In this document: positions 15,301 through 47,781 of the stretch, piece by piece | Numbering within the stretch: the first letter of the stretch is position 1 | Layout of the letters: each line of letters begins with the position of its first letter | Assembly (NCBI GenBank): GCA_019359435.1 | Contig: JAHHHI010000006.1 | Coordinates: 1 to 47,781 of the forward strand | DNA length: 47,781 bases | Direction: 5' to 3' | Origin: Kaiparowitsia implicata GSE-PSE-MK54-09C | GTDB taxonomy: Bacteria > Cyanobacteriota > Cyanobacteriia > Elainellales > Elainellaceae | Translations under genes and position numbers: made by a program | Notes under the pieces: model-generated | The model's database searches: none | The model's input: only the letters and a program-made list of their open reading frames with translations | Told to the model about the DNA's origin: nothing

Positions 15301-15662
15301 GGATCGGCCAACATCGCTGGATCAGCCAGCCAAACTGGGAGAACCTGGGGTGGCAACACACCAACCTGCGATGGGGGGGTGGTGATATTTGCTCTGGGCG
15401 GTGGCGGCGGTGGCGGCGGCAAATCGTTTAGGTCTATATCCTCTGGGTCATGGTCGAGGGTGCTAGAGTCTACGTCTTCGGGCCTCTGCTCCCTGACCTC
15501 TGGCTGCTGCTCGGCGACTAATTCCGACGCTGGCTCGACCTGCATCGCCAGCCAGAGGGTTTCGGCAATTTCGATGCTGGTAAACTGCCGATCTTCAGCA
15601 AGCAGCTTCACCAGCTCACTGATGCGATCGCTCGATGCCTGCACCCCTTCCGCAGATGCCAT
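12396..15662 (-). CDS. vWA-like (SAV_2336-type) protein fused to a formylglycine-generating-enzyme-type domain
   Basis: 1088 residues. A Pro-rich linker (PPPPPPPP, about 83-90) precedes a SAV_2336/vWA-like domain (about 160-340) with FDIVLVVDRGSSM as a degenerate metal-adhesion (DxSxS-like) site and IALSDCAGSYWWDG. A long acidic middle (about 560-840) leads to a C-terminal FGE-sulfatase/SUMF1 domain (about 850-1088) with GGTFMMGSPEEEP, RLPSEAEWEYACRAG, GNVWEWCEDHW and LRGGSWDLDPRDCRSAYR. Its ATG overlaps the MoxR stop by one base, so the two are translationally coupled. It is the vWA and probable effector component of the ternary system. Whether the FGE domain is a catalyst or a binding domain is unknown. 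Confidence 0.85.
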   Translation of the reverse strand: MASAEGVQASSDRISELVKLLAEDRQFTSIEIAETLWLAMQVEPASELVAEQQPEVREQRPEDVDSSTLDHDPEDIDLNDLPPPPPPPPRANITTPPSQVGVLPPQVLPVWLADPAMLADPLSVIRALKPLFKRVEAGTGRLLDEPATVDQIARTRLWLPILAPEREAWFDIVLVVDRGSSMHIWQRLVIDLVAILRRYGAFRNVQVFDLEVDRDAPKKEDRVLLRSHPDRPGHRPSELIDQRGRRIAIALSDCAGSYWWDGTLLPMLQDWSKTMPTVVWQMLPEWMWERTSLGRGDPVALSNDKPGAANQQLIVRSLIRDEAADAAYRLPMPVVTSEVRDLTNWSLMLAGDRREITPGFLLPPPGGSVPKARTLEDIVRDRLEQNPELDETSDLEAAFEAEVESIARRRVERFRELSSPHARRLVMLLAAAPVVTLPVMRLIRDSMLYECRSPLPIAEVFLSGLLQPLPRQESIEPDQVQYDFVPKAREVLLEVLPTVDTLEVINSVSAAVERRWNQFSNQDFRAFLTDPSVLPPEGLEGLRSFASVTASILKQLGSEYADFAQQLRQGAGEEPPSSQSQLEEASFPELKILQFVDAQLIVDAQLIEEDEESENDSSFPPLQTEEFTIATASIDKSDQPPVFNQQQKEQYLDELTVNAALDAQLDYFQHEILDAFIQLEHQFEADFPGLRPQDIAAEPQPEEITLAENEDISVVILERTITEISDIQASFELGAIIHFGVELTYSDFDTYHAEFNEYPTYQEGVHNLTVDAVAEVTLWFLEHGDEDEIQVEPELLELRVEQPILIDLGLPNFVIRRRDRTAQYFTEELPGLGAEAVGLDMVLVPGGTFMMGSPEEEPERHEDEGPQHEVTVPPFFMGRYLVTQAQWRAVAEMSQIERDINSAPSNFEGENHPVERVSWYDAVEFCRRLSEHTGRPYRLPSEAEWEYACRAGTEIPFYFGSTLTTELANYDGTVTYDGTTLDGSPKGEYQKETTSVDHFGLANAFGLCDMHGNVWEWCEDHWHGSYEGAPTDGSAWLSDDDKAQRLLRGGSWDLDPRDCRSAYRAFNSPDFDDDNIGFRVVCSAPRTP

Positions 15663-16798
15663 CAGTCCGCCTCGCTCAACCGCTTAAACAGCAAGGCTTG
15701 GATTCGCTTCATTTCGTCTGAGCCGGGGCTAGACTTCCGAGTCATCAGGTAAATCGCATTCAGAAGCTGATCGGTAGCTCGGTCGGCCTTGTTGCCTTTG
15801 TCCAAGAATTCGCCAATCAGCGTTCGGAGGTTCTCTTCTGTCTTCGTCCATCCACTTTGGTCAGTCGTGTCAAAGTGCGATCGTACAATCGGTAACAGAG
15901 ACTCTGGGGTTGGGTTGGGCATCTTGACCCGCAAGCAGCGGCGATAGAAAGCAGGTGGAAATTCCCGTTCGCCATTGCTAGTCATGATGACAATCGGAAA
16001 CTCGCAGCACTTCACCCGCCCATTGGTAATCGGGGCTTCCATATCCCGATCAGCAGTGCGAACCACCACTGTTGCGTCTTGTTCCGCTGCGTCTCGACGC
16101 TGCCGTTTGCGTCTTACCAATTCTGGAATCTCAAACTCGCCTTCTTCAAACAGGTTGAGCAGATCGTTCGGCAGGTTCAAATCGCTTTTGTCGATCTCGT
16201 CGATCAGCAACACCCGTGGCCACCGCGATGGCAAAAAAGCTGTGCCCACCGACCCAAGCTGAATATAGTCGCCCAGATCCCCTTCTTCTGGTTGGGCAAT
16301 GGATTCAGCCAGCGCTGGTTCTTCTAGAGCAGATTGAGTTCCAGACGGCGTGCGGGACTTGTCGAGCTGAGCGTCTTGCAGGCGGGCGATCGCATCGTAG
16401 CGATAGAGCGCATCGGTGAGGTGCGATCGCGCGGTAATGGGCCAGGTCAACACCGGACCCAGTTGCAGCTCATAGGCAATGGCATAGGCTAGCGAAGTTT
16501 TTCCCGATCCGGGTGCCCCAGTCACCAGCAAGGGGCGGCGGACATGAATGGCGGCGTTGACAGCATCAATAATTTCCGAGTTTCCACTTTCATCAGTCAG
16601 CACTCGAAAGCTCTGCCCACGCTGAATCGCCCGGTTATCACTCTCAGCCAGATGGCGCAGCTCATCCCAATACTCATCATCTTGAGCCTGCTGCACTTCC
16701 TCTGTGGGCAAAAACTTTCGCCAAGGCGGAGCGTCAGGCAACTGGGTTAGCGCCTTTGGCTGGGCATCGGGATTCGCACTAAAGCATTTCCAGGACAT
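15662..16798 (-). CDS. MoxR-type AAA+ ATPase of the conflict system
   Basis: The 378-residue ATPase has Walker A VTGAPGSGKTSLAYA (about 92-106), Walker B RVLLIDEIDKSDLNLPNDLL (about 197-216), a sensor 1 segment IVIMTSNGEREFPPAFYRRC and the PNPTPESL region after it. MoxR ATPases act with vWA proteins as remodelling machines. It lies between the VMAP gene (20-bp gap) and the vWA-FGE gene (one-base overlap). In the published scheme of such systems the NTPase is thought to license or gate the effector. Confidence 0.9.
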   Translation of the reverse strand: MSWKCFSANPDAQPKALTQLPDAPPWRKFLPTEEVQQAQDDEYWDELRHLAESDNRAIQRGQSFRVLTDESGNSEIIDAVNAAIHVRRPLLVTGAPGSGKTSLAYAIAYELQLGPVLTWPITARSHLTDALYRYDAIARLQDAQLDKSRTPSGTQSALEEPALAESIAQPEEGDLGDYIQLGSVGTAFLPSRWPRVLLIDEIDKSDLNLPNDLLNLFEEGEFEIPELVRRKRQRRDAAEQDATVVVRTADRDMEAPITNGRVKCCEFPIVIMTSNGEREFPPAFYRRCLRVKMPNPTPESLLPIVRSHFDTTDQSGWTKTEENLRTLIGEFLDKGNKADRATDQLLNAIYLMTRKSSPGSDEMKRIQALLFKRLSEAD

Positions 16799-16818
16799 AG
16801 GATCGGGTGCAGGGGGAC

Positions 16819-18288
16819 TCAGGACGCAACAAGCAAATCTTCATCATTCTTGAGGTCGGGCAGGCTGGGATAGCGATCGGGACAGTCGCAAAGCAATCTT
16901 AGGCTTTTGATTGCCTTATTTTCGGGCTTCGCACGCCTGTTCCTCCACTTTTCGGCAAGGTCAGCAAAATTCGTCACCTGACTCTCGTTCAGTAGGCCAT
17001 GAATCTGCTGTTCGAGTTCCTTAGCAGTGTACTGACCAAATTCAAATAGCCACAGAGCAATGGGAACCGCAGAATTGATGATGTCATACAAAATGTCTAT
17101 GCGCTGTTCTCGATTGGCAGGAAGTTCTGCCAAGAGCGATAGGCCCGGTTTACGATCCAGTAAAGCACTAAGCGCACCTGGACTTGGACAGTCATCTTGA
17201 CGATGGAACTGGTTACAGACGGTTTTCGCAGCTGCATGGGATTCTAGCAGTTGCCAGTTCTGCTTTAAGACGGCTTGCGCAGTCTTGTTCATGACCCGTT
17301 CGAGCGATCGCACTAAAAACCTCCGATGTAACCCCAATGGGCGAGGGCGGTTTTGCTCATTTTTGACTTCCCAATCTGCCACATCTTCTTCCAGATGAAC
17401 CCCAGGCAGAAATAGCTCAAGCGTGACCTGTCCACACTCATAGGGAATCAGTGCTGCTTCAGCATTTTGAATCAGCTCAGAAAGCAGACCCGGAACCTCA
17501 TGAAGCGGACAAGTGACAGAAGAAGCTTTGAACTCAATTGGGGCTGCTTCCCCCACAACATGCAGCTCAGAAAACACCGTGACAAAAGCACCGTCCTTCT
17601 GGGTTTGCCGACCGCTCTCTCTGAGAGATACAAGCAGGTAGCCCTGTCGAGCGATTGGAGCAATGGGTTCAGGAGCTTTGAGCTTGACTTTGTGTTTTTC
17701 AGCGATGCGATCGCGCCATTGCTCTAGCGGAGCCAGATCTCGGCTGCCTCCTTCGCCAGCTCGCTGAAACTGAGCCATAGCAAGCTCTACAAATCGAACT
17801 GCCAATTTGGGATTATCCAGTTCAGATAGGAGTTTTTGAATTTGGCTGACTTCCTTCGGTAGCGGTTGATCGGCGCGCGCTTCTCTGAATTCAGCACCAA
17901 TAATCTGCTTATATCCCCCGAGCAGTGCCCTTTGGAGATCGGCAAAATCGTAAGGAGAAAAGAGCGAGAACAAGTCTGTCCAATCTTCTTCAGCAAGCTT
18001 GGAGACTGACGGAATGAGCGGATTTTGCTGTAGCTCTGTGATTAAAGAGTCGTTTGGATTCTCGCAGCAAAATGCCTTGTAGACTTCATTAAGCCTTCCA
18101 TTTGCTCTTGCCCAGACCACCAATCCAGCAGCTGTATCTTGTAGGTTACTGCTTGGCGCAATGACCTCAAGGTTCTCGTTTAGCTCCTCATCAACAAATA
18201 GCGCTAATGCTGCCTTGTTGATATAAACCCGTTGTAGAGCTAGCCGGAGAGTCTTACGCTTGCTGTTATCGTTCCAATCAATCGGCAC
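16819..18288 (-). CDS. VMAP (vWA-MoxR-associated protein) with N-terminal EAD1
   Basis: 489 residues. The N-terminal ~90 residues (RKTLRLALQRVYINKAALAL, then FVDEELNENLEVIAPSS, GLVVWARANGRLNEVYKAF) match the death-like effector-associated domain EAD1. A middle beta-rich part (about 215-300) carries LLVSLRESG and QVTLELFLPGVHLEEDVADW. The C-terminal end (AVPIALWLFEFGQY to RLLCDCPDRYPSLPD) matches the VMAP C-terminal region. VMAP is the third core component of the ternary systems. The same EAD type occurs in the trypsin-like protein of this operon, which predicts direct homotypic contact. Confidence 0.82.
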   Translation of the reverse strand: MPIDWNDNSKRKTLRLALQRVYINKAALALFVDEELNENLEVIAPSSNLQDTAAGLVVWARANGRLNEVYKAFCCENPNDSLITELQQNPLIPSVSKLAEEDWTDLFSLFSPYDFADLQRALLGGYKQIIGAEFREARADQPLPKEVSQIQKLLSELDNPKLAVRFVELAMAQFQRAGEGGSRDLAPLEQWRDRIAEKHKVKLKAPEPIAPIARQGYLLVSLRESGRQTQKDGAFVTVFSELHVVGEAAPIEFKASSVTCPLHEVPGLLSELIQNAEAALIPYECGQVTLELFLPGVHLEEDVADWEVKNEQNRPRPLGLHRRFLVRSLERVMNKTAQAVLKQNWQLLESHAAAKTVCNQFHRQDDCPSPGALSALLDRKPGLSLLAELPANREQRIDILYDIINSAVPIALWLFEFGQYTAKELEQQIHGLLNESQVTNFADLAEKWRNRRAKPENKAIKSLRLLCDCPDRYPSLPDLKNDEDLLVAS

Positions 18289-18291
18289 AGC

Positions 18292-18711
18292 TTACTTCTC
18301 AGGAGGAATTACAAAAGCAACAGCGAGCGTGTATGTAACAAGTAGCAGTGAGCCATACAGCGGCTCATAGCCTTCCCACGAAGCAGCAAATGGGCCACCC
18401 GTCGCAAATACCCAAACGATAAAGGCGCCACAGGAAATTGCAATCTGGGTTCGAGCCGTTAACTTTCCGGGTTCCTGAGTCTGTCGCCGAGTCCAGGCGT
18501 ATGTGAAAAATAGTCCAACGACGAATAGAAACCAAAGTAGTCCTGCCTTGGGAATGTTCTCGGCAGCACTCTGGATCATGCCACTGACCGTCAGCCAAAA
18601 ACCCACCACCTCAGCTGGAATATATTTTCTAAGGCGCTCAAAATATCCATCGGGTGGAACATTGGATGCCGCACTTGTTTGAAGCTGCTCAGAAACAATC
18701 CGAAGACTCAT
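18292..18711 (-). CDS. Small membrane protein of the conflict operon
   Basis: 139 residues with about four hydrophobic segments (roughly 31-49, 55-72, 86-105 and 115-135) and a cytosolic N-terminus containing RLRKYIPAEVVGFWL. Short membrane proteins with this KYIPAEV-type motif recur in bacterial accessory loci, but I know no assigned function. It fits tightly between the EAD-trypsin (2-bp gap) and VMAP (3-bp gap). A role as membrane anchor or membrane target of the system is an inference. Confidence 0.7.
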   Translation of the reverse strand: MSLRIVSEQLQTSAASNVPPDGYFERLRKYIPAEVVGFWLTVSGMIQSAAENIPKAGLLWFLFVVGLFFTYAWTRRQTQEPGKLTARTQIAISCGAFIVWVFATGGPFAASWEGYEPLYGSLLLVTYTLAVAFVIPPEK

Positions 18712-18713
18712 CC

Positions 18714-19778
18714 TTACTTCCCCTCCTCACCACTTAAAACTGCCGAAATCCTTGGGTAGATGGCGCTGAAGAGGATTCCTTCCCGGACGCTACCAAAGCT
18801 GGTCGCCATCTCCTTGTGGTGTAGCGCTACCAGATTCCAATCGCTATCAAAACACGGTGAACCACTCGATCCACATTTGGTTGGGTTCACGTACAGCACC
18901 AATCCGCGTGCGCCGTTAGTCTTCACTACTCCGTTATTACTCAAAGACACTTTCATTGCCTCTCCTTCAGGGTGTTGCAGGAGATTGAGCGGCGACCGAG
19001 GCATCAGCATCAGCGAATGGTTGAATGGAACTGGCTCGACTGAAAAATTTGCAACAGGGCTGAGACGAATCAAAGCATAATCTAGCTCATTGATAGGGCT
19101 GAAAGCAGGAACTGGGTCACTGTCAGCCGCTTTTAGGGTTTGAGTGCGGGTCACTTCACCAAAATTGGGACTGACATAGCCAAACTCGAAGCGGGCTGAC
19201 TGGGCGATCGCATTCAAATCAGCGCCTTCTTTCAAACTCAAGACATGATAGTTTGTCAACACCAGTTCCGGAGCAATCAGCACCCCTGTAGCGCTTTCTT
19301 GAGGTGAGCGATCTGTGAACGTAATTTTGCACACTGAGTTTGCCAGTTCCAAACCCCGCCGGAGGATTCCCACGTCTGCTTCAAAACTAAACTGCTTAGG
19401 CAGAAATGCTTGTAGCTCCTCGTAGCCAACCTCTAAATCCCATGCGGCTGGGTCTAGATCGGACGGCAACTCGCTTGCCGAACCCTCAGAAGTATTCAAG
19501 CTCAAGCGCTGCTGGAGGATACGCCCACAAAATCGCTGAATATGCGGATTTTGGGTATCCTCCGCCAGCGCCAAAATCAGTTCGTCGATGTATCCTTTGG
19601 CGATCGACCACCTAATAAGCTCAAAAATTACTGTCCGATGTGCCTCAGCTGTGGAAATGAGGGACAGATTCTGACCCAGCTCCTCATCGACAAAGAGTCG
19701 GAGATCTGCTGGAGACGGGTAGGCAGATTCAATTGCCTCACGGAGCTGCTTGCGATCCTCATTCGATAGGTTCAGCAC
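18714..19778 (-). CDS. EAD1-trypsin-like serine protease (effector)
   Basis: 354 residues. EAD1 occupies about 1-87 (LREAIESAYPSPADLRLFVD then EELGQNLSLIS, ELIRWSIAKGYIDELI). A trypsin-like domain follows with the full triad visible: H178 in VLTNYHVL, D233 in ELDYALIRL and S305 in KCGSSGSPCF. There is no signal peptide, so the protease should act in the cytosol. It is the first gene of the five-gene operon. EAD-linked trypsins are recognised effectors or processors in VMAP ternary systems; the substrate is unknown. Confidence 0.88.
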   Translation of the reverse strand: MLNLSNEDRKQLREAIESAYPSPADLRLFVDEELGQNLSLISTAEAHRTVIFELIRWSIAKGYIDELILALAEDTQNPHIQRFCGRILQQRLSLNTSEGSASELPSDLDPAAWDLEVGYEELQAFLPKQFSFEADVGILRRGLELANSVCKITFTDRSPQESATGVLIAPELVLTNYHVLSLKEGADLNAIAQSARFEFGYVSPNFGEVTRTQTLKAADSDPVPAFSPINELDYALIRLSPVANFSVEPVPFNHSLMLMPRSPLNLLQHPEGEAMKVSLSNNGVVKTNGARGLVLYVNPTKCGSSGSPCFDSDWNLVALHHKEMATSFGSVREGILFSAIYPRISAVLSGEEGK

Positions 19779-22723: not shown

Positions 22724-23482
22724 TTGATTGTGCCTAAAGTCATTGCTATTTTTAACCAAGCGGGCGGCGTCTGTAAAACGACGTTGACGATGAACCTGGG
22801 CTACCACCTGGCATTGCGCGGACGTCGGGTGCTGCTGGTGGATGTTGACCCCCAGGCGTCTCTAACAACATTTATGGGGTTGGAACCCCATGAGTTGGAG
22901 GAAACCATCGCAGATGCCATTTTGCAGGAGGAAGGGAAACTGCCAATCCAGGCGAATCTCCACAAGATGAACCTTGCCCCTGCCAACATTACGTTGAGTG
23001 CCGCAGAACTGCAACTGGCATCAGTGATGGCGAGGGAGTTGCGATTGAAGGAGGCTCTAGAGCCAGAAATGGCAAACTATGACTTCATCTTGATTGACTG
23101 CCCCCCTAGCCTTGGAGTTTTGAGCATCCTGGCTTTAACTGCCTCTAGCCATGTTCTGATTCCGATTCAGACGCACTTTAAGGCGTTTAAAGGCACTGAA
23201 CTCCTGTTAGACACGATTAAGAAGGTAAGAAAGCACCTAAACCGAAAACTGGCAATCGCCGGGGTTGTTCCCACAATCTATAACAATGCCAGCCAGGACA
23301 GAGCAATTTTGGAGGCATTGAAGGAGCAACTATCTCCCCTTGCACCGGTTTTCTCGCCCATCTCCCGTGCGACAGCCTATGCAGATGCAGCCATGGCGCG
23401 ACAACCGCTAGCGGTTTATGCGTCTAAGCATCCGTCCCTGAAGGTTTTAGATGAAATTGCACAGGCAATGGAGGAGCTGTAG
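22724..23482 (+). CDS. parA: ParA-type partition ATPase
   Basis: 252 residues with the deviant Walker A segment FNQAGGVCKTT (about 9-19), VLLVDVDPQASLT (Walker A' region) and FILIDCPPSLGVLS (Walker B). The signature lysine of the KGGxxKT motif is replaced by Ala and a Gly by Cys; AGGVxKTT forms are common in cyanobacterial plasmids. There is no N-terminal HTH, so it is a short ParA with a ParB partner. The start is TTG 22724 or GTG 22730. It overlaps parB by one base. Confidence 0.92.
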   Translation: MIVPKVIAIFNQAGGVCKTTLTMNLGYHLALRGRRVLLVDVDPQASLTTFMGLEPHELEETIADAILQEEGKLPIQANLHKMNLAPANITLSAAELQLASVMARELRLKEALEPEMANYDFILIDCPPSLGVLSILALTASSHVLIPIQTHFKAFKGTELLLDTIKKVRKHLNRKLAIAGVVPTIYNNASQDRAILEALKEQLSPLAPVFSPISRATAYADAAMARQPLAVYASKHPSLKVLDEIAQAMEEL

Positions 23483-24405
23483 TGGCTAGTAAGCGTCCTC
23501 AAGTTCCCCAGATGCGGGGGGTAACTGACCTTTTCAATATTGAGATTGAGGAAGAATCCTCCATCAGCACTGTCCCCATCCACAAAATCAGATTGGCGCT
23601 TCGGCAACCTCGGCGCTACTTTGATCCAGAAAAGCTGGCTCAGTTAACGCAGTCCGTAAAAGAGCATGGCATTCTAGAACCGATTCTGGTTCGTCCGTTG
23701 GAAAAGGGCTATGAACTGATCGCTGGGGAGCGACGGTATCGGGCTGCAAAGGAACTGGGATTGGCTGAAGTCCCAGTTGTTGTTCGGGATTTTGACGATC
23801 GCCAAGCATTACAGGTTGCGCTGATCGAAAACCTGCAACGGGATGACCTGAATCCGGTGGATGAAACCGAGGGGCTTTTGCAGTTGATGGCGATTGACCT
23901 TGATACCTCTACGGATGATGTGGTGTCGATTCTCAATCAGGTGGCAAATGCTAAAAAACGGGGGCAGGATGTGACGGATAACGTTATCCGTCAGCTTGAA
24001 TTGATCGAATCTCTGCTTTCTACGGTTGGTCGGTTTAGTGCTGAGTCTTTCCGTGTGAACCGTCTTCCTCTACTCAATTTGCCGCAGGATGTGCTGGAGG
24101 TTCTCCGCCAAGGCAAGATTGAGTTTACAAAAGCACGGGCGATCGCACGGGTTAAGGATGAAGGCCAGCGAGAGGCACTCTTGCACCAGGCAATAGCTGA
24201 AGGTCTACCACTGAGTGACATCAAGGACGCGATCAAAACGTTGCAACCGAAGGCGGAATCAGAGCCAACACCCGAGAAGGCGATCGCCCAGCGCTGGAAT
24301 GAGATCGGGAAGCGGTTGCAAAAGGGGAATCTGTTGGGCGATCTCAAGAAGCGCGATCGCATCCAGAAGTTGATGAATGAGCTAGATAAGTTGACTTCCA
24401 TGTGA
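23482..24405 (+). CDS. parB: ParB/Spo0J family partition protein
   Basis: 307 residues. The N-terminal ParB/Srx-like CTPase domain shows LRQPRRYFDPEKLAQLTQSV, EPILVRPLEKGYELIAGERR and YRAAKELGL. ALIENLQRDDLNPVDETEGL marks the box II region, and a central HTH follows (about 190-250). It uses GTG at 23482, coupled to parA. With ParA it would move plasmid copies to daughter cells. A canonical parS palindrome was not found; the inverted repeat at 24424 is one candidate. Confidence 0.92.
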   Translation: MASKRPQVPQMRGVTDLFNIEIEEESSISTVPIHKIRLALRQPRRYFDPEKLAQLTQSVKEHGILEPILVRPLEKGYELIAGERRYRAAKELGLAEVPVVVRDFDDRQALQVALIENLQRDDLNPVDETEGLLQLMAIDLDTSTDDVVSILNQVANAKKRGQDVTDNVIRQLELIESLLSTVGRFSAESFRVNRLPLLNLPQDVLEVLRQGKIEFTKARAIARVKDEGQREALLHQAIAEGLPLSDIKDAIKTLQPKAESEPTPEKAIAQRWNEIGKRLQKGNLLGDLKKRDRIQKLMNELDKLTSM

Positions 24406-29271: not shown

Positions 29272-29326
29272 GTTCCCATAATGCCACTGTCAATAACTTT
29301 GTTATTGACAGTGGCATTATGGGAAC
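29272..29326. repeat. 55-bp palindrome with 26-bp perfect arms
   Basis: Left arm 29272-29297 (begins GTTCCCATAATGCC) pairs without mismatch with right arm 29301-29326 around TTT. It is far longer than a normal terminator and has no T run. It lies 140 bp downstream of an integrase pseudogene. It could be a recombination site, abutted transposon ends or a mobile hairpin. The odd centre argues against a telomere-resolution site. Confidence 0.85.
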
Positions 29327-34605: not shown

Positions 34606-35232
34606 TCATGAGGTTAGGGGTTTGCCCTTGTAAGTCCACTTAAAGGGCTTAGCCATGGTGCGGTTGAAGTACTCAATAAAGGCGAGGATTTTGGCTTTGA
34701 GGTCAGCTTGGCTGGTAAAGTTGCCCCGACGCAGCACCTTGCGCAGCAGGATGCTGAACCAGATTTCAATTTGATTGAGCCAGGAGCAATGCTTGGGGGT
34801 GAAGTGCACGACTAGGCGATGGTCTGGGTTCCGCAGAAACGCGGTGCGAGTGGCCATCGACTGCAAGATGCCAGAGTTGCCCTTTTGTCCCAGTTCGATA
34901 GGCTCCGGCTCAAGGGCAGCGACCAGGCGTACCACGGCCTCAGACTGATGGGTATTGAGACAGTCCATCACCAGATGGAGTTTGGGTACGTTGGGATGCT
35001 GGGCTATCAAAGCGCTCAGGTGAGCCAACAAATCGGCTTCGGTGCGGGTGTCACCGACACTGGCCTGCTCGATGTGTCCAGTGGCTACATTGAAGGAGGC
35101 AATCAGGCTTTGGGTGCCATGGCGGATATACTCGAACTCGGCTTTCTCTGGTCGCCCGGGCTTCATCGGCAGGTTTGGCATGGTGCGCTCTAGGGCTTGA
35201 ATCCCCGTCATTTCGTCCAGGCTAATCGTCAC
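34606..35232 (-). CDS. IS630 transposase, DDE half (orfB)
   Basis: 208 codons: TISLDEMTGIQALERTMPN (first Asp of the DDE triad in the SLDE motif), KLHLVMDCLNTHQSE (second Asp) and HFTPKHCSWLNQIEIWFSIL (Glu in NQIE). The catalytic triad is complete. It overlaps the upstream frame by four bases, but the in-phase fusion needs a -1 shift further upstream at the C8 run near 35311-35318. ATG use at 35232 is less likely than frameshifting. Confidence 0.85.
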   Translation of the reverse strand: MTISLDEMTGIQALERTMPNLPMKPGRPEKAEFEYIRHGTQSLIASFNVATGHIEQASVGDTRTEADLLAHLSALIAQHPNVPKLHLVMDCLNTHQSEAVVRLVAALEPEPIELGQKGNSGILQSMATRTAFLRNPDHRLVVHFTPKHCSWLNQIEIWFSILLRKVLRRGNFTSQADLKAKILAFIEYFNRTMAKPFKWTYKGKPLTS

Positions 35233-35837
35233 CGCTCCCTGTGCTGCTCGCTCAATGGCCTGCTCGTAGACAGCGCAGATGTCGGTGACTTTGGCGGCAA
35301 ACTCGCCGTCGGGGGGGGATGGAGCCAGTAGCGGCTCTGGTGCGGCTTCAACTCGGCTTCGGCCAGCAATCGCCCCACATGGCGTTCACTAATCTGCTCC
35401 ACAATCCCCTGCTTCACCATCTCATCGGCCAGTTCCCGAGGGCTCCAATGGCTGATAGGGCGTCCATATTGCTCCGGCGGTGCACAGGCTAGGGCATAGA
35501 GTTGAGTGATTTGCTCCAAGCTAAAGGTGGCGGGTGCTCCCGGTCGGGGTGCATCCCGCAGCCGCTCAACCACTGGAATCCCCCGGCCACTGACCTCAAG
35601 CCAGCGCCGCCGCCACAGCCGACTCATGTCTTTACTGATACCCAACTCCCGCGAGATTTGGCCATGGCTTTCCCCCCGGCTCGCCCGCAGAATGATCCGC
35701 GCCCGCAGCGCGATCTGCTGAGCCGTGCTCGGGCGTCGAGCCAAGATCTCAAGGTCTGTCTGTTCTGACGCGGTTAAGATGATGGGGGCCGCTGCCAATC
35801 GGGGCATGGGAGTGTCCTGTTCCGCCCTACCCCTCAA
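35229..35837 (-). CDS. IS630 transposase, helix-turn-helix half (orfA)
   Basis: 202 codons. It has two HTH modules: STAQQIALRARIILRASRGE then HGQISRELGISKDMSRLWRR, and EQISERHVGRLLAEAELKPH near residue 160. After SRYWLHPPP the frame runs over eight C residues and leaves the family; the continuing family sequence DGEFAAKVTDICAVYEQ is in the -1 frame. This is a plausible programmed slippage site. Confidence 0.85.
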   Translation of the reverse strand: MRGRAEQDTPMPRLAAAPIILTASEQTDLEILARRPSTAQQIALRARIILRASRGESHGQISRELGISKDMSRLWRRRWLEVSGRGIPVVERLRDAPRPGAPATFSLEQITQLYALACAPPEQYGRPISHWSPRELADEMVKQGIVEQISERHVGRLLAEAELKPHQSRYWLHPPPTASLPPKSPTSALSTSRPLSEQHRER

Positions 35838-35991: not shown

Positions 35992-36195
35992 GTGCCAGAA
36001 GACCGCTCGTACTATCGTGCTTACCTGCCCACCGATTTATATCGGCTCTTGGAGCAAATTGGAGCGCTTCATGAGCCTTCCCTCGACAAATCTGAGATGG
36101 CTAGGCTTGCATTCACGATGTGGGTCAATTCACCTGAGATAGCGAAACTCATTGAGTATCACAAGCTCAAGCAGTACGAAGGCAACACCGATTAG
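35992..36195 (+). CDS. Small hypothetical protein next to the protelomerase-like gene
   Basis: From GTG 35992: 67 residues, VPEDRSYYRAYLPTDLYRLL followed by EQIGALHEPSLDKSEMARLA and FTMWVNSPEIAKLIEYHK. The frame is open back to 35902, but the upstream part does not look coding. It may be a small DNA-binding or regulatory protein. It converges with the leftward protelomerase-like gene, overlapping its stop by four bases. Confidence 0.45.
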   Translation: MPEDRSYYRAYLPTDLYRLLEQIGALHEPSLDKSEMARLAFTMWVNSPEIAKLIEYHKLKQYEGNTD

Positions 36196-38060
36196 CGAAT
36201 CAGCTTCACAGACTCGGCAATGGGCTTCTCGTGCCGTTTGTTATGGCGTTTCGACAGCCCATGCTTCTGGTGATGGGCCTCAATTTCTTCTGACATCACT
36301 TCGACCGCTGCTTTCACTTTGGACTGAGTTCCAGCCCCAATCGACCGTGCAAGTGTCATTACCGATAGGCCGTTGATAGCCCACATGTCGTTTATCGATT
36401 GTGCTTGCTCGTTGTGGTGGATGATTGAGCGAATCACACGAACCAAGCGCGGATCGATATCTGCTGCAGCTGATGGCAACGCAGGTTGTGCAGCCCCATC
36501 AGAACCATTATTGAAAGTATTTTGTTGTGTGTCTGCAGCTTCGACTGACTCATCTTCAACTGGCTTATCTTCAACTGGCTTATCTTCAACTGGCTTATCT
36601 TCGACTGGCTCAGCCTTGACTGACTCAACGGCCCGAGGAGCTTCAGCCGGAACCCCTAACAATTGCCGCATCGCTTCTAGCTTTTGGCAAGCGTCGTCTC
36701 GCTCCTGGCGCATGGCATCTAGAGCCTCGTGATCGGGCTCAACCTGCACACGCAGCTTGCCAACTAAGCCACCCATCTGTTTAACCAACTCATCTAGTTG
36801 AGCAATAGAAGATCCACTTGGCTCAGCTTGTGGCTCGGCCTGTGGGCTTAGATCTTCTCCGGCTCGGGAATTAATTAACTTTTCAATAACTGCAGCAAAG
36901 ACCGAATCAAATAGAGATTGATATCCATCCTCGGCTAATACCGGAATCTCTAGTAGAGAGGCACAGAGCCGCAACATTTCAACATCCACCTTCAACCGCT
37001 TAAAATCACCGCTGCGGGAAGATCCTGAACTGTTTGAGCTGGCATCCTGCAATGCAGACTTTGCATTGGAGAGTGTTTGATTGCTGATTCCCCCGTCTAC
37101 CACTTGATTACTCCTGAAATCCTCAAGAACTTCTACGCTCTGCCAATCGAGCCGAATCCCCTTACGAATTGCGCCATCGTCATCGACGATAAAATATCCT
37201 CTGTAATGGCGATCTGCTGCAATTTGCCGCCTCTCTGCTAAAGATAAATCTGTATGCCCAGAAAAATGACCTTGAATGTGAGATCGATACTCAACTTCAT
37301 CGACTTGTAAGGGGCAGTAGAAATATACCGCGATCGCTGCATACAATTTTCGCAGCATCTGAGCATGAACTCGCTCACGCCCTTTCACAGGCGGCAATAG
37401 ATCACCAAAACCTCGATCAACCGCAGCACCAATTTGCCCGGATAGAGTGCCATTAACAGCTTCAATAGACATGGACTCGGTTGGGCAAATTTTGCGAAGT
37501 TTGTCTAATGCTGTAAGAACTGTGGTCGCTTCTGTCAAGGAAGGAACCTCAAATGCCAGTTCAACGGGTTCACCTCGACGTTTGAGTGCACCTCGAAAGA
37601 TGACTGAGAACGAGCTTTTTGGCTCAAGTCGAGCCGTTTTCAGTATTTCTGTACTGCGCCTACCAGTCAACAGCATTAGCCCAGCAGCAATATCAGCCCA
37701 TTCTCGGCTCAAGAGTAGATTCGTCGCCCGATAAACTAGGGCATTTACAGTTTTGGGAGTCAACGGAATCAATGCCTCGTTTTGCTCAGCAACAGTAGCC
37801 GCTGTACCACGATTCACTTCAATCCATTCCTCGGTTGTGAAGTTGAGATATTCGAGTACCGGGTGAGCCTCTCCAAAACGCTCCTTCACAGCCTTACGGC
37901 TCTGGGTCATTGCGTTCTTTTGCTGAGCTACCGTTTTCAGACCCCGCTCCACCCATTGAGAGCGAAGCAGTTCGGACTGAATCCGCAAATTTTCATCCGA
38001 GTCATCTTCCAAAATATTTTTGGAAAACACCTCAAACATCGGAACTAGCCAATGCAGCAT
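36192..38060 (-). CDS. Telomere resolvase (protelomerase)-like tyrosine recombinase
   Basis: 622 residues. Residues ~100-300 follow the catalytic pattern of telomere resolvases: LMLLTGRRSTEILKTARLEP (R134/R135), VIFRGALKRRGEPVELAFEV (K160), VHAQMLRKLYAAIAVYF (R237), IQGHFSGH (H265) and AADRHYRGYFIVD (candidate nucleophile Y286). A helical N-terminal part and a C-terminal tail with four PVED(K/E) units (about 495-515) and a basic end complete it. A strong GGAGG site lies five bases before ATG 38060. Protelomerases cut palindromic sites and seal hairpin ends of linear replicons. The motif spacing between H and Y is wider than in known enzymes, so a related recombinase is possible. Confidence 0.65.
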   Translation of the reverse strand: MLHWLVPMFEVFSKNILEDDSDENLRIQSELLRSQWVERGLKTVAQQKNAMTQSRKAVKERFGEAHPVLEYLNFTTEEWIEVNRGTAATVAEQNEALIPLTPKTVNALVYRATNLLLSREWADIAAGLMLLTGRRSTEILKTARLEPKSSFSVIFRGALKRRGEPVELAFEVPSLTEATTVLTALDKLRKICPTESMSIEAVNGTLSGQIGAAVDRGFGDLLPPVKGRERVHAQMLRKLYAAIAVYFYCPLQVDEVEYRSHIQGHFSGHTDLSLAERRQIAADRHYRGYFIVDDDGAIRKGIRLDWQSVEVLEDFRSNQVVDGGISNQTLSNAKSALQDASSNSSGSSRSGDFKRLKVDVEMLRLCASLLEIPVLAEDGYQSLFDSVFAAVIEKLINSRAGEDLSPQAEPQAEPSGSSIAQLDELVKQMGGLVGKLRVQVEPDHEALDAMRQERDDACQKLEAMRQLLGVPAEAPRAVESVKAEPVEDKPVEDKPVEDKPVEDESVEAADTQQNTFNNGSDGAAQPALPSAAADIDPRLVRVIRSIIHHNEQAQSINDMWAINGLSVMTLARSIGAGTQSKVKAAVEVMSEEIEAHHQKHGLSKRHNKRHEKPIAESVKLIR

Positions 38061-38152: not shown

Positions 38153-38344
38153 TTATCTTTGCTGCCCTGTGCCATCGCCGCCTTCCTGGTACAAATTTTC
38201 TGCTGCCCTCTTCGCTGCGTTAGCGGCAGCATCCGCGACAACATAGACAACATAATCAATCTGCGTTCGTGCGCCTTGGTCATCTGGGCTGGGCTGTTTG
38301 GCTTGCCGAATTGGCGACCCGTAATACCCAGTCACAGTGATAAT
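38153..38344 (-). pseudogene. Fused parA-start / partner-gene remnant, left copy
   Basis: The frame encodes RIITVTGY (start of the small ParA) joined directly to YGSPIRQAKQPSPDDQ (start of its partner), then an unrelated tail ending GDGTGQQR. All of parA between codon 9 and the partner gene is missing. The ATG is lost; a GTG at 38335 is the only start. It is a relic of a former partition copy. Confidence 0.6.
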
Positions 38345-38350
38345 TCTTGT

Positions 38351-38398
38351 CTGGCCATCTGGCTATCTGGCCATTTGGTTATCTGGTTATCTGGTTAG
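38351..38398. repeat. Six tandem 8-bp repeats (centromere-like), left array
   Basis: Units CTGGCCAT, CTGGCTAT, CTGGCCAT, TTGGTTAT, CTGGTTAT, CTGGTTAG follow each other without gap, then the inverted form AGATAACCAGAT. Similar arrays occur before the functional parA (39974) and the right copy (40984). Tandem short repeats upstream of parA are typical centromeres of type Ib partition systems. Confidence 0.75.
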
Positions 38399-39241
38399 GC
38401 AGATAACCAGATTTTACTACCAGGAAGCTGATTTGGGTCTGTTTTTTGATGAGGAGCTTTATCTGGTTGTCTGGTTAGGCAGATAGCCAGATTCTGGCGT
38501 TAAGTGGCTGAATGTGGATCTCTTTTGTGCGATCGGGCAAGGCTTGGGACCTAGGATGATGGCTCTGACTTAGGGAGGCTTACTCTCTAGGGCAGATTGG
38601 GTGTCATTAATCCAGTATTGGAACGTCTGAGTGTAGGGTGTTCAGGGCCGAGTTAGGCCAGGTAAAAGGGTCAAGCTTGCAGCCGTGGGGTTAGGGCTTC
38701 GCGGTAGCGGCTCTGGTTGTGGCGTAATGCTCCAAAATTGAACAAACTACTGCCGACATTGGGATGCTCGTCCCTTACTCGATTGCTCTGGTCATCGCCA
38801 CATAGAGTAACTGGGCCTCATCAGCCACATCGTTATAGTGGCTCGGTCATGCGAGAGGCGCAGCAGCTGTAGGAGAGGATAAGAGTGGACATGGTCTAAA
38901 ACCCTTTGACTGCTTTCAGTGTGCCTTCGGGACAGGGGCTCTCTGGATATCCAGAAAGCTCCCCTCCCCAAAGGGCTCCTCTCCTTCAGCAGTGGGTTAA
39001 TTTGCTAAAAGAGGGGGAGGATCTCTCATTATTCATTGTCGATCGCTTTGCATCTCAAGGCCAGCAATCTGGTTATCTGGTCGTCTGGTCATCTGGTAAA
39101 CCAAACTTCTGGGTCAGCGCCTCCACCATTACATCGGTCATGGTAACGTCTTGGATTTTGGCTTGAATGGCCCAGTGTCTTCTTAAAGACTCAGGTACCT
39201 TGACACAGAGGTTCACTTGCTTCTCTTTAACCTGGTCGCCG
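38391..39241. repeat. 851-bp direct repeat, left copy
   Basis: The sequence is the same as 40014-40864 (offset 1623) wherever I compared it, including every block of the long non-coding part. It covers the non-coding region 38500-39070 and the 3' part of the partner gene. Together the two copies bracket parA. The near identity indicates recent duplication or ongoing recombination. Confidence 0.9.
38400..39072. other. Non-coding stretch downstream of the partition genes
   Basis: About 670 bp without a convincing gene. It holds a second set of 8-bp repeats (around 38463-38485) and a structured segment with GGGGCTCTCTGGAT and ATCCAGAAAGCTCCCC (38936-38967) that folds into a long imperfect hairpin. 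A plus-strand frame from 38906 overlaps the partner gene antisense and is probably not coding. A small RNA is possible. Confidence 0.5.
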
Positions 39242-39381
39242 GGTTCCGGCTTACCAGTAATCTGGTTATCTGGTTTGCTGGTTATTTGATTATCTGGTCT
39301 ACCAGCAATCTGGCCATCTGGTCTGGGCTGTTTAGCTTGCCGAATTAGCGACCCATACTTTCCGCCCTGCTGCTCAGCCAT
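39073..39381 (-). CDS. Ribbon-helix-helix partner of the small ParA (ParG/ParB-type)
   Basis: 102 residues. The C-terminal half VNLCVKVPESLRRHWAIQAK then IQDVTMTDVMVEALTQKF is a ribbon-helix-helix DNA-binding domain. The N-terminal half is a flexible linker with near-repeats PDNQITSK and PDNQITGK, which arise because the 8-bp centromere-like repeats continue inside the gene (39262-39325). Its start overlaps the end of parA by eight bases. It should bind the repeats and stimulate ParA. Confidence 0.8.
   Translation of the reverse strand: MAEQQGGKYGSLIRQAKQPRPDGQIAGRPDNQITSKPDNQITGKPEPGDQVKEKQVNLCVKVPESLRRHWAIQAKIQDVTMTDVMVEALTQKFGLPDDQTTR
39262..39325. repeat. Eight 8-bp units inside the partner gene
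   Basis: CTGGTTAT, CTGGTTTG, CTGGTTAT, TTGATTAT, CTGGTCTA, CCAGCAAT, CTGGCCAT, CTGGTCTG form a gapless array with the same 8-bp period as the upstream arrays. Another four units overlap the gene's stop (39069-39100). The coding DNA thus also looks like centromere DNA. Confidence 0.75.
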
Positions 39382-39973
39382 TGCCTAGTACCTCCAAGAT
39401 TTCTTTGCCTAATGCCTCATAGTCGAGCCAGCCCATGCGATCGCGCCCGGTGAGCGCCGACACTGGCACCCCCGCAAGAGCAGCCTTTTGAAAGCCTGCT
39501 GCACGGCGAATCATGGTTTTGAATACCGGCAACCCGTTATCGCTCAGCTCGGCCCGCATCGTCTCGCCCTCATGGCTGGGTTTGGGCGGAACGATGGTGA
39601 GTAGAGCCCGGTAAGTGGCATTGCCTAGGTCGCTGGCCGTTTGCAGCATAGGCTCTAGGGAGACCACGTCGGGCACCGTAGGAAGGATCAGTAAATCGGC
39701 ACCATCGGCCAATTCTTTGAGGTCGGATGAGTCAGGGCGGGCGGGGGTATCAATCACGACGAAGTCACGGCCTTGAACTACCTTCATGGCTTTTCGCTCA
39801 TCGGCTACTAAGAACGGCAGCTGGCCACGATCGCTCCATGCGATCGCGGTGCGGTTGGGGTCGCCATCCACCAGCACCACATCTCCCAGGCGACTAAAGT
39901 AGGTCGCAACGTGGATCGCTGTCATGGATTTACCGCAGCCTCCCTTGTACCCAGTCACAGTAATAATTTTCAT
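39374..39973 (-). CDS. parA: Small ParA-family partition ATPase (type Ib)
   Basis: 199 residues with canonical deviant Walker A GYKGGCGKSMTA (about 8-19), VVLVDGDPNRTAIAW and FVVIDTPARPDSSDL (Walker B). Its length is that of ParF/type Ib ATPases without HTH. It lies behind an 8-bp repeat array that starts right at the ATG and before an overlapping ribbon-helix-helix gene. It is unrelated to the larger ParA at 22724. It is the only complete copy of the three partition relics here. Confidence 0.92.
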   Translation of the reverse strand: MKIITVTGYKGGCGKSMTAIHVATYFSRLGDVVLVDGDPNRTAIAWSDRGQLPFLVADERKAMKVVQGRDFVVIDTPARPDSSDLKELADGADLLILPTVPDVVSLEPMLQTASDLGNATYRALLTIVPPKPSHEGETMRAELSDNGLPVFKTMIRRAAGFQKAALAGVPVSALTGRDRMGWLDYEALGKEILEVLGNG

Positions 39974-40021
39974 CTGGCCATTTGGTTATCTGGTTATCTG
40001 GTTGTCTTGTCTACTGGTTAG
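39974..40021. repeat. Six 8-bp repeats upstream of parA (centromere and operator)
   Basis: CTGGCCAT, TTGGTTAT, CTGGTTAT, CTGGTTGT, CTTGTCTA and CTGGTTAG lie immediately upstream of the parA start codon. The array probably serves as parS and as operator for autorepression by the ribbon-helix-helix partner. Confidence 0.8.
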
Positions 40022-40864
40022 GCAGATAACCAGATTTTACTACCAGGAAGCTGATTTGGGTCTGTTTTTTGATGAGGAGCTTTATCTGGTTGTCTGGTTA
40101 GGCAGATAGCCAGATTCTGGCGTTAAGTGGCTGAATGTGGATCTCTTTTGTGCGATCGGGCAAGGCTTGGGACCTAGGATGATGGCTCTGACTTAGGGAG
40201 GCTTACTCTCTAGGGCAGATTGGGTGTCATTAATCCAGTATTGGAACGTCTGAGTGTAGGGTGTTCAGGGCCGAGTTAGGCCAGGTAAAAGGGTCAAGCT
40301 TGCAGCCGTGGGGTTAGGGCTTCGCGGTAGCGGCTCTGGTTGTGGCGTAATGCTCCAAAATTGAACAAACTACTGCCGACATTGGGATGCTCGTCCCTTA
40401 CTCGATTGCTCTGGTCATCGCCACATAGAGTAACTGGGCCTCATCAGCCACATCGTTATAGTGGCTCGGTCATGCGAGAGGCGCAGCAGCTGTAGGAGAG
40501 GATAAGAGTGGACATGGTCTAAAACCCTTTGACTGCTTTCAGTGTGCCTTCGGGACAGGGGCTCTCTGGATATCCAGAAAGCTCCCCTCCCCAAAGGGCT
40601 CCTCTCCTTCAGCAGTGGGTTAATTTGCTAAAAGAGGGGGAGGATCTCTCATTATTCATTGTCGATCGCTTTGCATCTCAAGGCCAGCAATCTGGTTATC
40701 TGGTCGTCTGGTCATCTGGTAAACCAAACTTCTGGGTCAGCGCCTCCACCATTACATCGGTCATGGTAACGTCTTGGATTTTGGCTTGAATGGCCCAGTG
40801 TCTTCTTAAAGACTCAGGTACCTTGACACAGAGGTTCACTTGCTTCTCTTTAACCTGGTCGCCG
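40014..40864. repeat. 851-bp direct repeat, right copy
   Basis: It matches 38391-39241. It includes the same non-coding part and the C-terminal codons of a partner gene copy. After 40864 the two copies diverge quickly. Recombination between the copies would delete parA and the partner start. Confidence 0.9.
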
Positions 40865-43610: not shown

Positions 43611-44966
43611 ATGAAGACCAAAAAACCTTCCAAAATTATCCGCACCGATAAATGGACGCTTAACCCGACTGCCGAGCAGCGAGTGCAGCTGGGCAAAACG
43701 GTTCAGGTCTATCGTCGGTTGTGTCGGCACTTGGTCGGGATTGTCTTCATGCACTGGCCGGATCTAGGGAGATTGTCTAACCAAGAGCTAGTTCCCGCCG
43801 TGGAACGGCTCATCCACAAAACAGCCCAAACCCCTAATCCAAAGTACGGGCTGCTGGATGCAACGTTCCACAAGTTCCCGAGCTACTATCGCCGCGCCGC
43901 CATCATGTTCGCGGCGGGTCAGGTTAGCAGCTACATGACCCGGTACTGGGATTGGCAAGGAGGTCAATCCCGCAGGCGAAAGAATGCGAAACCCCCTCGG
44001 TTAAATGCTGCGGCAGGGTGCTATCCCGCTCTTTACAAGGGCCAGTGCTACAAGCTGCACGGCTATGACAAGGTTGAGGTCAAGGTGTTCATGGGGTCTG
44101 ACTGGGTTTGGACAACAGTTCAAATCACAGGTCTCCGTAATCGCCATGAAGTGGCAGGCAACATGATGTTGTCGCCTTACTTGATCTTTAATGGCAAGGC
44201 TTGCCACCTCTCGGTTCCGTTTCACTGCACCCCAGCGAAGCGGTATCCTGATGGCAATGTCACAGCAGTTGACATGGGCATCAACACCACGGCCACCGTG
44301 GCAGTCGTGACCCACGACGGCACTGTAATCCATCGTGAATTCATTCACCCTGGAAGAGACATAGACCGTCGTGACAAACGGCTGAAGTCCGTCTCAATGC
44401 GGGCATCAAAGACGATGGGCAAAGGCGGGAAACTCCACAAGGGGTTTTGCACTAATACCTACCGGAAGTGCCGGAACATCAACCAGCAGATTAGCCACAT
44501 CGTTTCTAAGCGGGTTGTGCAAATCGCGGCTGAGTTCAACTCAGAAGCGATTGTCTTTGAGAACCTGAAAGGGTGGAAGGCGACGGGTGGGCGGCGACGT
44601 TCTAACCTGCGCCAACGCTTTCACGGCTGGCTCAAGGCCAGTATCCGCGACTACACCGAAATGAAGTGGCAAGAGGTGGGTGGCAAGGTGATTGATATCG
44701 TTGCCGCCTACACCTCAAAGCTGGCCTACGATGGTTCTGGCATTGTTAGGCGCGACAAGAAAAACTACGCGCTAGCAAAATTCCCATCTGGCAAGCGCTA
44801 TAACTGCAACCTCAATGGTGCGCAGAATATAGCGGCTAGAGGCATCCTTCAGCTCACTCGCCGAAAGGACAGTGAGGGCCGTTCCAGCAAACGCTCTGGA
44901 CGGTCGCTTAGAAGCTGGGCTTGTCTATGTGATCTCTGGACTCAGGATAGTTCGAGATTAGCATAG
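43611..44966 (+). CDS. tnpB: TnpB family protein lacking the RuvC-III aspartate
   Basis: 451 residues. RuvC-I is intact (TAVDMGINTTATVAVV, D221) and RuvC-II too (EAIVFENLKGWK, E317). In RuvC-III the expected Asp is Asn (YNCNLNGAQNIAARG, N400), and the zinc-finger cysteines are largely absent (AYTSKLAYDGSGIVRRDKKN). Active TnpB proteins are RNA-guided nucleases that help retain the element. This version may bind its guide RNA without cutting, or use another acidic residue. The guide RNA would come from the tnpB end and right end of the element. Confidence 0.9.
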   Translation: MKTKKPSKIIRTDKWTLNPTAEQRVQLGKTVQVYRRLCRHLVGIVFMHWPDLGRLSNQELVPAVERLIHKTAQTPNPKYGLLDATFHKFPSYYRRAAIMFAAGQVSSYMTRYWDWQGGQSRRRKNAKPPRLNAAAGCYPALYKGQCYKLHGYDKVEVKVFMGSDWVWTTVQITGLRNRHEVAGNMMLSPYLIFNGKACHLSVPFHCTPAKRYPDGNVTAVDMGINTTATVAVVTHDGTVIHREFIHPGRDIDRRDKRLKSVSMRASKTMGKGGKLHKGFCTNTYRKCRNINQQISHIVSKRVVQIAAEFNSEAIVFENLKGWKATGGRRRSNLRQRFHGWLKASIRDYTEMKWQEVGGKVIDIVAAYTSKLAYDGSGIVRRDKKNYALAKFPSGKRYNCNLNGAQNIAARGILQLTRRKDSEGRSSKRSGRSLRSWACLCDLWTQDSSRLA

Positions 44967-47534: not shown

Positions 47535-47618
47535 GCCTAACGGTGAAGCTCAACGGCGGTAGACAACCTTTGTATCATAACCGAGAACTTTATTCCGTCC
47601 GTTACAGAGCAGTTATGG
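47535..47618. repeat. Second attC-like imperfect inverted repeat
   Basis: 84 bp from GCCTAAC (RYYYAAC box) to GTTATGG. Inner arms AACGGCGG (47552-47559) and CCGTCCGTT (47595-47603) pair with one bulge. The left 25 bases are nearly the same as at 104-128 (GCCYAACGGTGAAG). Like the first site it lies just after the end of a gene. Confidence 0.35.
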
Positions 47619-47781
47619 GGAGACGGAACTAAAGAGAGGAGACGACCCTGGACTGCTCGACAGCGAGATGTCCACTAACATATTGCCTCGCTCCTCCCTT
47701 CAAAGCTTCTGAGACACCGAAGAATGATATAGAAAAAGAAACTGGGCAGGGAGTTGAGGACGACTTTGCAGCGCCAGACAG
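47619..47781. other. Right edge, no gene recognised
   Basis: About 160 bp without a convincing frame or structure. Confidence 0.5.

Follow-up and report, generated by a model that had tools for sequence, protein, structure and literature searches.

A predicted telomere resolvase encoded on a plasmid-like contig of a cyanobacterium, and possible odd-length hairpin junctions in its clade

Borrelia, Agrobacterium and the N15-like phages are the best-known carriers of covalently closed hairpin telomeres, and the locus described here raises the question of whether a cyanobacterium encodes an enzyme that makes such ends and, if so, which DNA it would act on. The window, i.e., the whole stretch of DNA that was analysed, is contig C6 (47,781 bases) of the 6.72-Mb, 109-contig genome of Kaiparowitsia implicata GSE-PSE-MK54-09C. 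The initial annotation, made from the sequence, had proposed that a 622-residue protein is protelomerase-like, that its gene lies beside a partition locus, and that the replicon may be linear or derived from a linear phage-plasmid. The open reading frame, designated tel, has 622 codons and an ATG start, and was found here to lie on the minus strand, which the initial annotation had not given. The features referred to in the text are:

36192–38060, minus strand: putative telomere resolvase gene (tel), 622 aa (open reading frame, PF16684 match, predicted model compared with TelA)
37761–38060, minus strand: N-terminal helical domain and linker, residues 1–100 (predicted model aligned to TelA)
37248–37745, minus strand: catalytic domain with R135, K160, Q234, R237 and H265 (PF16684 match, phmmer alignment to TelA)
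37203–37205, minus strand: codon for Tyr286, the predicted nucleophile, corresponding to TelA Y405 (clade alignments)
36195–37169, minus strand: C-terminal extension, residues 298–622 (sequence and AlphaFold2 model)
39073–39973, minus strand: ParA-like ATPase and small companion open reading frame, amid TATCTGGT-type repeats (open reading frames, Pfam)
22724–24405, plus strand: ParA/ParB pair (Pfam)

The translation contains the series of motifs that had been read in it as typical of telomere resolvases (GRRSTEI, FRGALKRRG, LRKLY, GHF and HYRGY). A Pfam scan matched the protein to PF16684 (ResT-TelK_cat) with 100.6 bits against a cut-off of 27 (E = 1e-28), and no other Pfam family exceeded its cut-off. 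When the PDB was searched with phmmer, the E-values were 8.6e-13 for TelA (4dwp), 1.7e-6 for TelK (2v6e) and 0.58 for ResT; a profile built from the clade alignment, which comprises the window protein and 31 relatives (n = 32), reached 1.7e-28, 4.3e-14 and 4e-6, respectively, and matched nothing in the PDB besides protelomerases at E 0.01. PF16684 was matched by all 32 proteins of this alignment, and the Pfam families listed for these proteins, 23 in all, included no integrase. All 32 also matched the NCBIfam TelA equivalog NF052462 to some degree, the window protein with 69.8 bits, far below the cut-off of 800; judged from its sequence, it is a relative of TelA, not TelA itself.

An AlphaFold2 model based on the 32-row alignment had a mean pLDDT of 77 and a pTM of 0.55, with the N-terminal and catalytic parts mostly above a pLDDT of 85. 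Searching with this predicted model, Foldseek returned eight chains at E ≤ 0.001, every one of them a telomere resolvase. VIA-align superimposed the model on TelA with a Z score of 24.9 (277 residues, 2.8 Å rmsd), on TelK with 19.2 and on ResT with 13.1, followed among the matches listed by other tyrosine recombinases, from XerA (8.8) downward, including Cre (7.8). The structural match spans the N-terminal and catalytic domains, covering model residues 1–297 for TelA (residues 112–418) and 1–304 for TelK. The C-terminal extension contains acidic PVEDK repeats and predicted long helices, with a confident helical part at about residues 530–610.

The residues of TelA considered here, as given in the accessible part of its structural description, are R255, K286, Y363, R366, H394 and Y405, together with Y201 and R205, which take part in refolding; R205 caps the hairpin (PMC3558466). 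In the phmmer alignment, R255, K286, Y363, R366 and H394 pair with R135, K160, Q234, R237 and H265 of the window protein, while the partners of Y201 and R205 are W79 and N83. (The TelA numbering appears to be the PDB chain number minus 20, which was consistent at each residue checked.) This alignment ends just short of Y405, and Y286 was placed by the clade alignments, in which it is a Tyr in all 32 proteins. The catalytic Arg, Lys, Arg, His and Tyr are all present in the window protein, and the variable sixth position is Gln234. Nine residues (H66, N83, R134, R135, K160, R237, Y240, H265 and Y286) are invariant in the 32 proteins. Position 79 is Tyr in 17, Trp in 12, His in two and Ser in one; the refolding positions of the window protein hold an aromatic residue (W79) at the Y201 site and, at the R205 site, an Asn that is common to the whole alignment. 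At position 234 the window protein alone has Gln, the other 31 having His.

Since family, fold and catalytic residues agree, we regard the window protein, on the strength of its sequence and predicted model, as a telomere resolvase and not an integrase; it would be a genuine member of a cyanobacterial branch, and is probably active. An ordinary phage or integron tyrosine recombinase has the catalytic fold in common with it, as the Z scores of XerA and Cre attest, but TelA, TelK and ResT are far ahead in both sequence and fold and no integrase family appeared in the Pfam results, which makes this identification exceedingly improbable. A better match to a plain tyrosine recombinase, which would have spoken against the initial annotation, was not obtained: telomere resolvases gave the better match. 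The catalytic Lys and Tyr are present as K160 and Y286. A decaying or repurposed resolvase, still binding DNA but having lost hairpin formation, is a less remote idea, which we nevertheless consider unlikely. Gln234, found in one of 32 proteins, is the sole feature of the catalytic site that speaks against full activity, which it could weaken; the end branch of the window protein is 0.74 long, compared to 0.24 for its nearest relative, and there is a tandem duplication upstream of the gene. However, the 622-codon frame is intact, the rest of the catalytic residues are retained along with the invariant H66, N83 and Y240, and TelA itself carries a Tyr at the position of Gln234, according to the accessible part of PMC3558466.

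Relatives of the protein are spread across the cyanobacteria. Of 386 genomes sampled across the phylum, 15 contained a PF16684 match, which in 14 exceeded the cut-off, and the window protein matched 20 of the 36 genomes of its own family, the Kaiparowitsia genome being counted in both cases. Seventeen of these 20 matches included most of the catalytic region; that in genome G389 ran from residue 227 on, and those in G011 and G415 were confined to the last 200 residues. (The last domain may be a module common to other proteins.) The best match, 48% over residues 3–328, was in a genome of the same family. Among plasmid records, 25 were matched, 22 of them cyanobacterial and three from Pseudomonas. 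A 64-protein tree placed the window protein inside a clade of 38 rows with an SH-aLRT of 98; this was a quick tree with some long branches, from which rows L008, L014, L015, L038 and L042 had been dropped beforehand. PF16684 was also over the cut-off in a control genome, that of the well-studied Synechococcus elongatus. Among 46 stretches searched for synteny, the adjoining ParA matched one (L092) and the small open reading frame none.

The replicons that carry these relatives are mostly filed as linear. Of the 25 matched records, 19 resolvase-bearing cyanobacterial plasmids were viewed, and by the depositors' own topology labels 14 are linear and five circular, compared to none linear and eight circular among eight control plasmids (Fisher P = 5.8e-4). 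The controls were hand-picked via the other ParA of the window or by accession; they were absent from the matches to the window protein, PF16684 not being the criterion, and seven of them came from strains in which another plasmid bears a resolvase. Terminal inverted repeats were present in 11 of the 19 records, and none was detected in the other eight, three of which are filed as circular. The repeat is perfect over 1,340 bp in pGLO7428.02, and measures 957 bp in pNPM10, 1,099 bp in Chondrocystis plasmid5 and 1,491 bp in Fischerella plasmid7, the last of these filed as circular; imperfect repeats (81–85%) occur in pLBY, L. boryana NIES-2135 plasmid2 and Cy782206.

When 85 ends of contigs and records bearing a resolvase were examined, including both (negative) ends of the window, 14 proved to be terminal palindromes, versus 3 of 4000 internal control positions; the remaining 71 ends had none. 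Two of the 14, L079 (imperfect) and L080 (7-bp arms), are weak, and the other 12 came from eight replicons, the two ends of one plasmid being non-independent. A further 15 contig ends of relatives, some from the same contigs, yielded one terminal palindrome and 14 ends without. The one is that of G400:C52, which opens with a perfect 36-bp palindrome 0.8 kb from its resolvase match. A 98,395-base Elainella contig has a copy of the gene at both ends, within a repeat that is 89.8% identical over 1,719 bp. In draft assemblies, the gene tends to start at a contig end: the start lay within 1.2 kb of an end, reading inward, at 15 of 37 loci, compared to 5.0 expected from the contig sizes and a maximum of 13 in 20,000 draws, whereas the downstream side was near an end at seven of the 37 (37 of 41 loci were used, a few of them from the same genome). 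Linear-replicon biology is thus supported in the cyanobacterial relatives.

Two relatives have the gene inside very large palindromes. In genome G027 (L023), a single contig of 4,681,111 bases, there is a perfect inverted repeat at about 2113190 with arms of 3,079 bp and one central base, and each arm of this 6.2-kb palindrome contains a resolvase gene. On contig G410:C1 (L126), a perfect palindrome with an even centre at about 916523 has arms of at least 10 kb, the distance to which they were traced, with resolvase genes on both sides; mirror positions at least 300 kb from the centre did not match, so the arms must end within 300 kb. Since bacteria do not generally maintain perfect palindromes of such length stably, we read both as telomeres that were joined or read through by the assembler. 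If this is true of G027, its 4.68-Mb contig would be a linear chromosome.

The tips of the palindromes differ between the clade of the window protein and its neighbours. Six clade telomeres with arms of at least 11 bp had tips that could be read (Chondrocystis plasmid2 and plasmid3, G027, Chroococcus FPU101, Microcoleus FACHB-1515 and Leptolyngbya FACHB-8), and all six have an odd number of bases, the middle one being A or T within the sequence TC-A/T-GA. Five telomeres outside the clade, also with their tips read, are of even length (pGLO7428.02, Fischerella plasmid8, pNsp_d, G400:C52 and G410), and pNPM10 and Cy782206 were taken as even from the points at which their records start. On the tree, the six odd telomeres fall within the 38-row clade of the window and the seven even ones outside it. 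To our knowledge, the known junctions of other resolvases are even-length. For TelA, PMC3558466 gives the self-complementary six bases TCATGA.

An artefact at the apex is unlikely, though possible, since the six telomeres stem from different genomes and assemblies. We suggest, at slightly less than even confidence, that the clade of the window protein resolves odd-length junctions in which one central A:T pair sits on the dyad axis (TC-A/T-GA); our estimate is held down because two weak clade telomeres do not fit this apex, L080 being odd with the centre AAT-G-ATT and L079 even and imperfect. In two other members of the clade there are longer palindromes upstream of the gene (L093, arm 32; L088, arm 17); these are not at contig ends, and their apex does not fit either. 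If odd junctions are real, they would constitute a change to the known reaction: the stagger of the cuts would be odd, the two hairpins would have different tips, one ending in A and its partner in T, and the base at the tip would switch from one generation to the next. On the side of the enzyme, the invariant Asn83 in place of TelA Arg205 could be the corresponding change.

What, then, is the replicon that carries the gene? The claim of a partition locus beside it holds: a ParA-like ATPase (39374–39973) and a small open reading frame (39073–39381), in which no Pfam family was matched, both adjoin tel, and there is a second locus, the ParA/ParB pair. With these two partition loci, contig C6 looks plasmid-borne. 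Upstream of the gene, a 676-bp segment is duplicated with 98% identity (38325–39000 and 39948–40623), surrounded by the TATCTGGT-type repeats, a 45-nt family in 18 overlapping copies that is perhaps a partition site. Elsewhere, the window holds a transposase split over two open reading frames with DDE_3 and HTH_32 halves (34606–35837, minus strand), a group of AAA ATPase, VMAP-C/EAD1 and EAD1-trypsin proteins that resembles a conflict system (15662–19778, minus strand), a TnpB-like protein whose OrfB_IS605 and Cas12f1-like matches are both under the Pfam cut-offs (43611–44966, plus strand), and a 142-bp repeat (47598–47738) that recurs, at 95% identity, where contig C65 of this genome starts.

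No telomere could be seen on this contig. Both ends of C6, which need not be the ends of the replicon, lacked a terminal palindrome or terminal repeat, and no overlap joined them; a search of C6 for TC-A/T-GA palindromes gave none scoring above a 6-bp arm. Of the 218 contig ends in the genome, 78 were checked (76 plus the two of C6), and terminal palindromes were likewise absent from these. A covariance model (R1) built from five clade telomeres found nothing in the Kaiparowitsia genome at E 10, with 150 of 1118 candidates scored. This empty result is weak, since the control run of R1 found all five source replicons or genomes, but missed Leptolyngbya FACHB-8 (11-bp arm) and was empty in the genomes of L078 and L082. 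A near-palindrome about 890 bp upstream of the gene (38926–38971, with a copy at 40549–40594) was rejected as a telomere: it is even-length and imperfect (82%, 28-nt arms), away from the contig end, and does not fit the apex. About 7 kb from the gene is an inverted repeat of 55 bp (29272–29326) with perfect 26-bp arms and a 3-nt TTT loop; apart from its own reverse complement it is single-copy in the genome, and it had no match in the plasmid collection. The proposal of linear replicon biology in a cyanobacterium was supported for the relatives, with their 14 of 19 linear records and terminal palindromes, but not for this replicon, in view of the contig and contig ends searched.

The replicon may be linear, in which case its ends would lie in another part of the assembly, or it may be circular and encode a trans-acting enzyme. 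The enzyme most likely serves a linear plasmid. That the contig is part of a circular (or integrated) plasmid, from which the resolvase acts on other linear replicons, is a serious contender to which we give somewhat less than an even chance; it posits the same enzyme as our preferred explanation, differs in the replicon alone, and our confidence in the two overlaps. Three of the 19 resolvase-bearing records are indeed circular without terminal repeats, the contig contains no telomere, and more than 9.7 kb separate the gene from each contig end. Kovacikia minuta plasmid pB, which is circular and was not among the resolvase matches, encodes a ParA with 82.5% identity to the one of the ParA/ParB pair, but a relative of the latter with 57.9% identity is on the linear pGLO7428.02; also against circularity are the 14 of 19 records filed as linear and the lack of an overlap between the contig ends. 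A precedent for action in trans is ResT, which is encoded on the circular cp26 of Borrelia (PMC4379921, accessible part). Nostoc ATCC 53789 is a possible parallel: it has two linear plasmids according to the accessible part of PMC7118181, and only pNsp_d was among our plasmid matches, although pNsp_f may lie outside the collection searched. The origin from a phage-plasmid, as put forward in the initial annotation, found no backing. Ten matches in the phage collection, all Vibrio and Halomonas phages and several of them annotated as protelomerase, would be consistent with a remnant of an N15-like phage-plasmid, but their identity is 25–32% and extends over no more than 32% of the protein, a scan of viral contigs gave no relative, and no phage structural family was found in the 30 of the 66 open reading frames of the window (those of at least 100 aa) that were scanned with Pfam. 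We consider such an origin very improbable.

In our preferred explanation, which we hold with good confidence, the window protein is a telomere resolvase whose substrate would most likely be a linear plasmid of the same cyanobacterium, either its own carrier or another in the cell, and whose junction, judged from the clade, is expected to be an odd-length palindrome with the apex TC-A/T-GA. Family, fold, catalytic residues and the hairpin-like ends on the replicons of relatives are the observed part of this explanation; the reaction steps are borrowed from TelA, and we infer these steps, the activity, the substrate and the linearity for the present case. This work places the enzyme in many cyanobacteria and connects it with plasmids whose ends are palindromes or terminal repeats, offering a possible explanation for the upkeep of the ends of cyanobacterial linear replicons, together with a specific and testable site motif.

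That cyanobacteria have this enzyme family and hairpin plasmids was already known in outline. Several cyanobacterial plasmid genes are annotated as ‘protelomerase family protein’ or ‘telomere resolvase’, and the accessible part of the TelA paper names cyanobacteria among the bacteria with hairpin telomeres, without a reference (PMC3558466). In Nostoc sp. N6, sequencing reads had led to the conclusion that plasmids pNPM8, pNPM9 and pNPM10 are linear with hairpin ends (PMC5987646); the main text of that article does not contain the terms ‘telomer’ or ‘resolvase’. A term search of PMC13293297 and PMC12042878 found no occurrence of cyanobacteria. Among the open-access literature matches listed, we found no report that connects the gene with linear topology and terminal palindromes throughout the phylum, nor one of the odd-length apex of the present clade.

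Of the known systems, TelA of Agrobacterium tumefaciens (4dwp, 4e0p) is among the closest: its fold is matched over residues 1–297, four of its catalytic residues (R255, K286, R366 and H394) by direct alignment and Y405 by the clade alignment, and the position of Y201 is Tyr or Trp in 29 of the 32 clade proteins. It differs in that R205 is replaced by Asn in all 32 and Y363 by His in 31 and by Gln in the window protein, which also has a longer His-to-Tyr loop and the 325-residue C-terminal extension. TelK of phage phiKO2 (2v6e) resembles the predicted model in fold, but is 20% identical over the structural alignment, and the window gene was not seen on a phage; ResT of Borrelia (8vs5) resembles the model in its catalytic fold at 12% identity. 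The plasmid genes of Leptolyngbya boryana pLBX, Gloeothece and Nostoc belong to the same family and are mostly on linear records, although the pLBX protein is 40.8% identical to that of the window. Nostoc sp. N6 pNPM10 likewise carries a resolvase, but one outside the clade of the window, with an apex that, from the start of its record, appears to be even-length.
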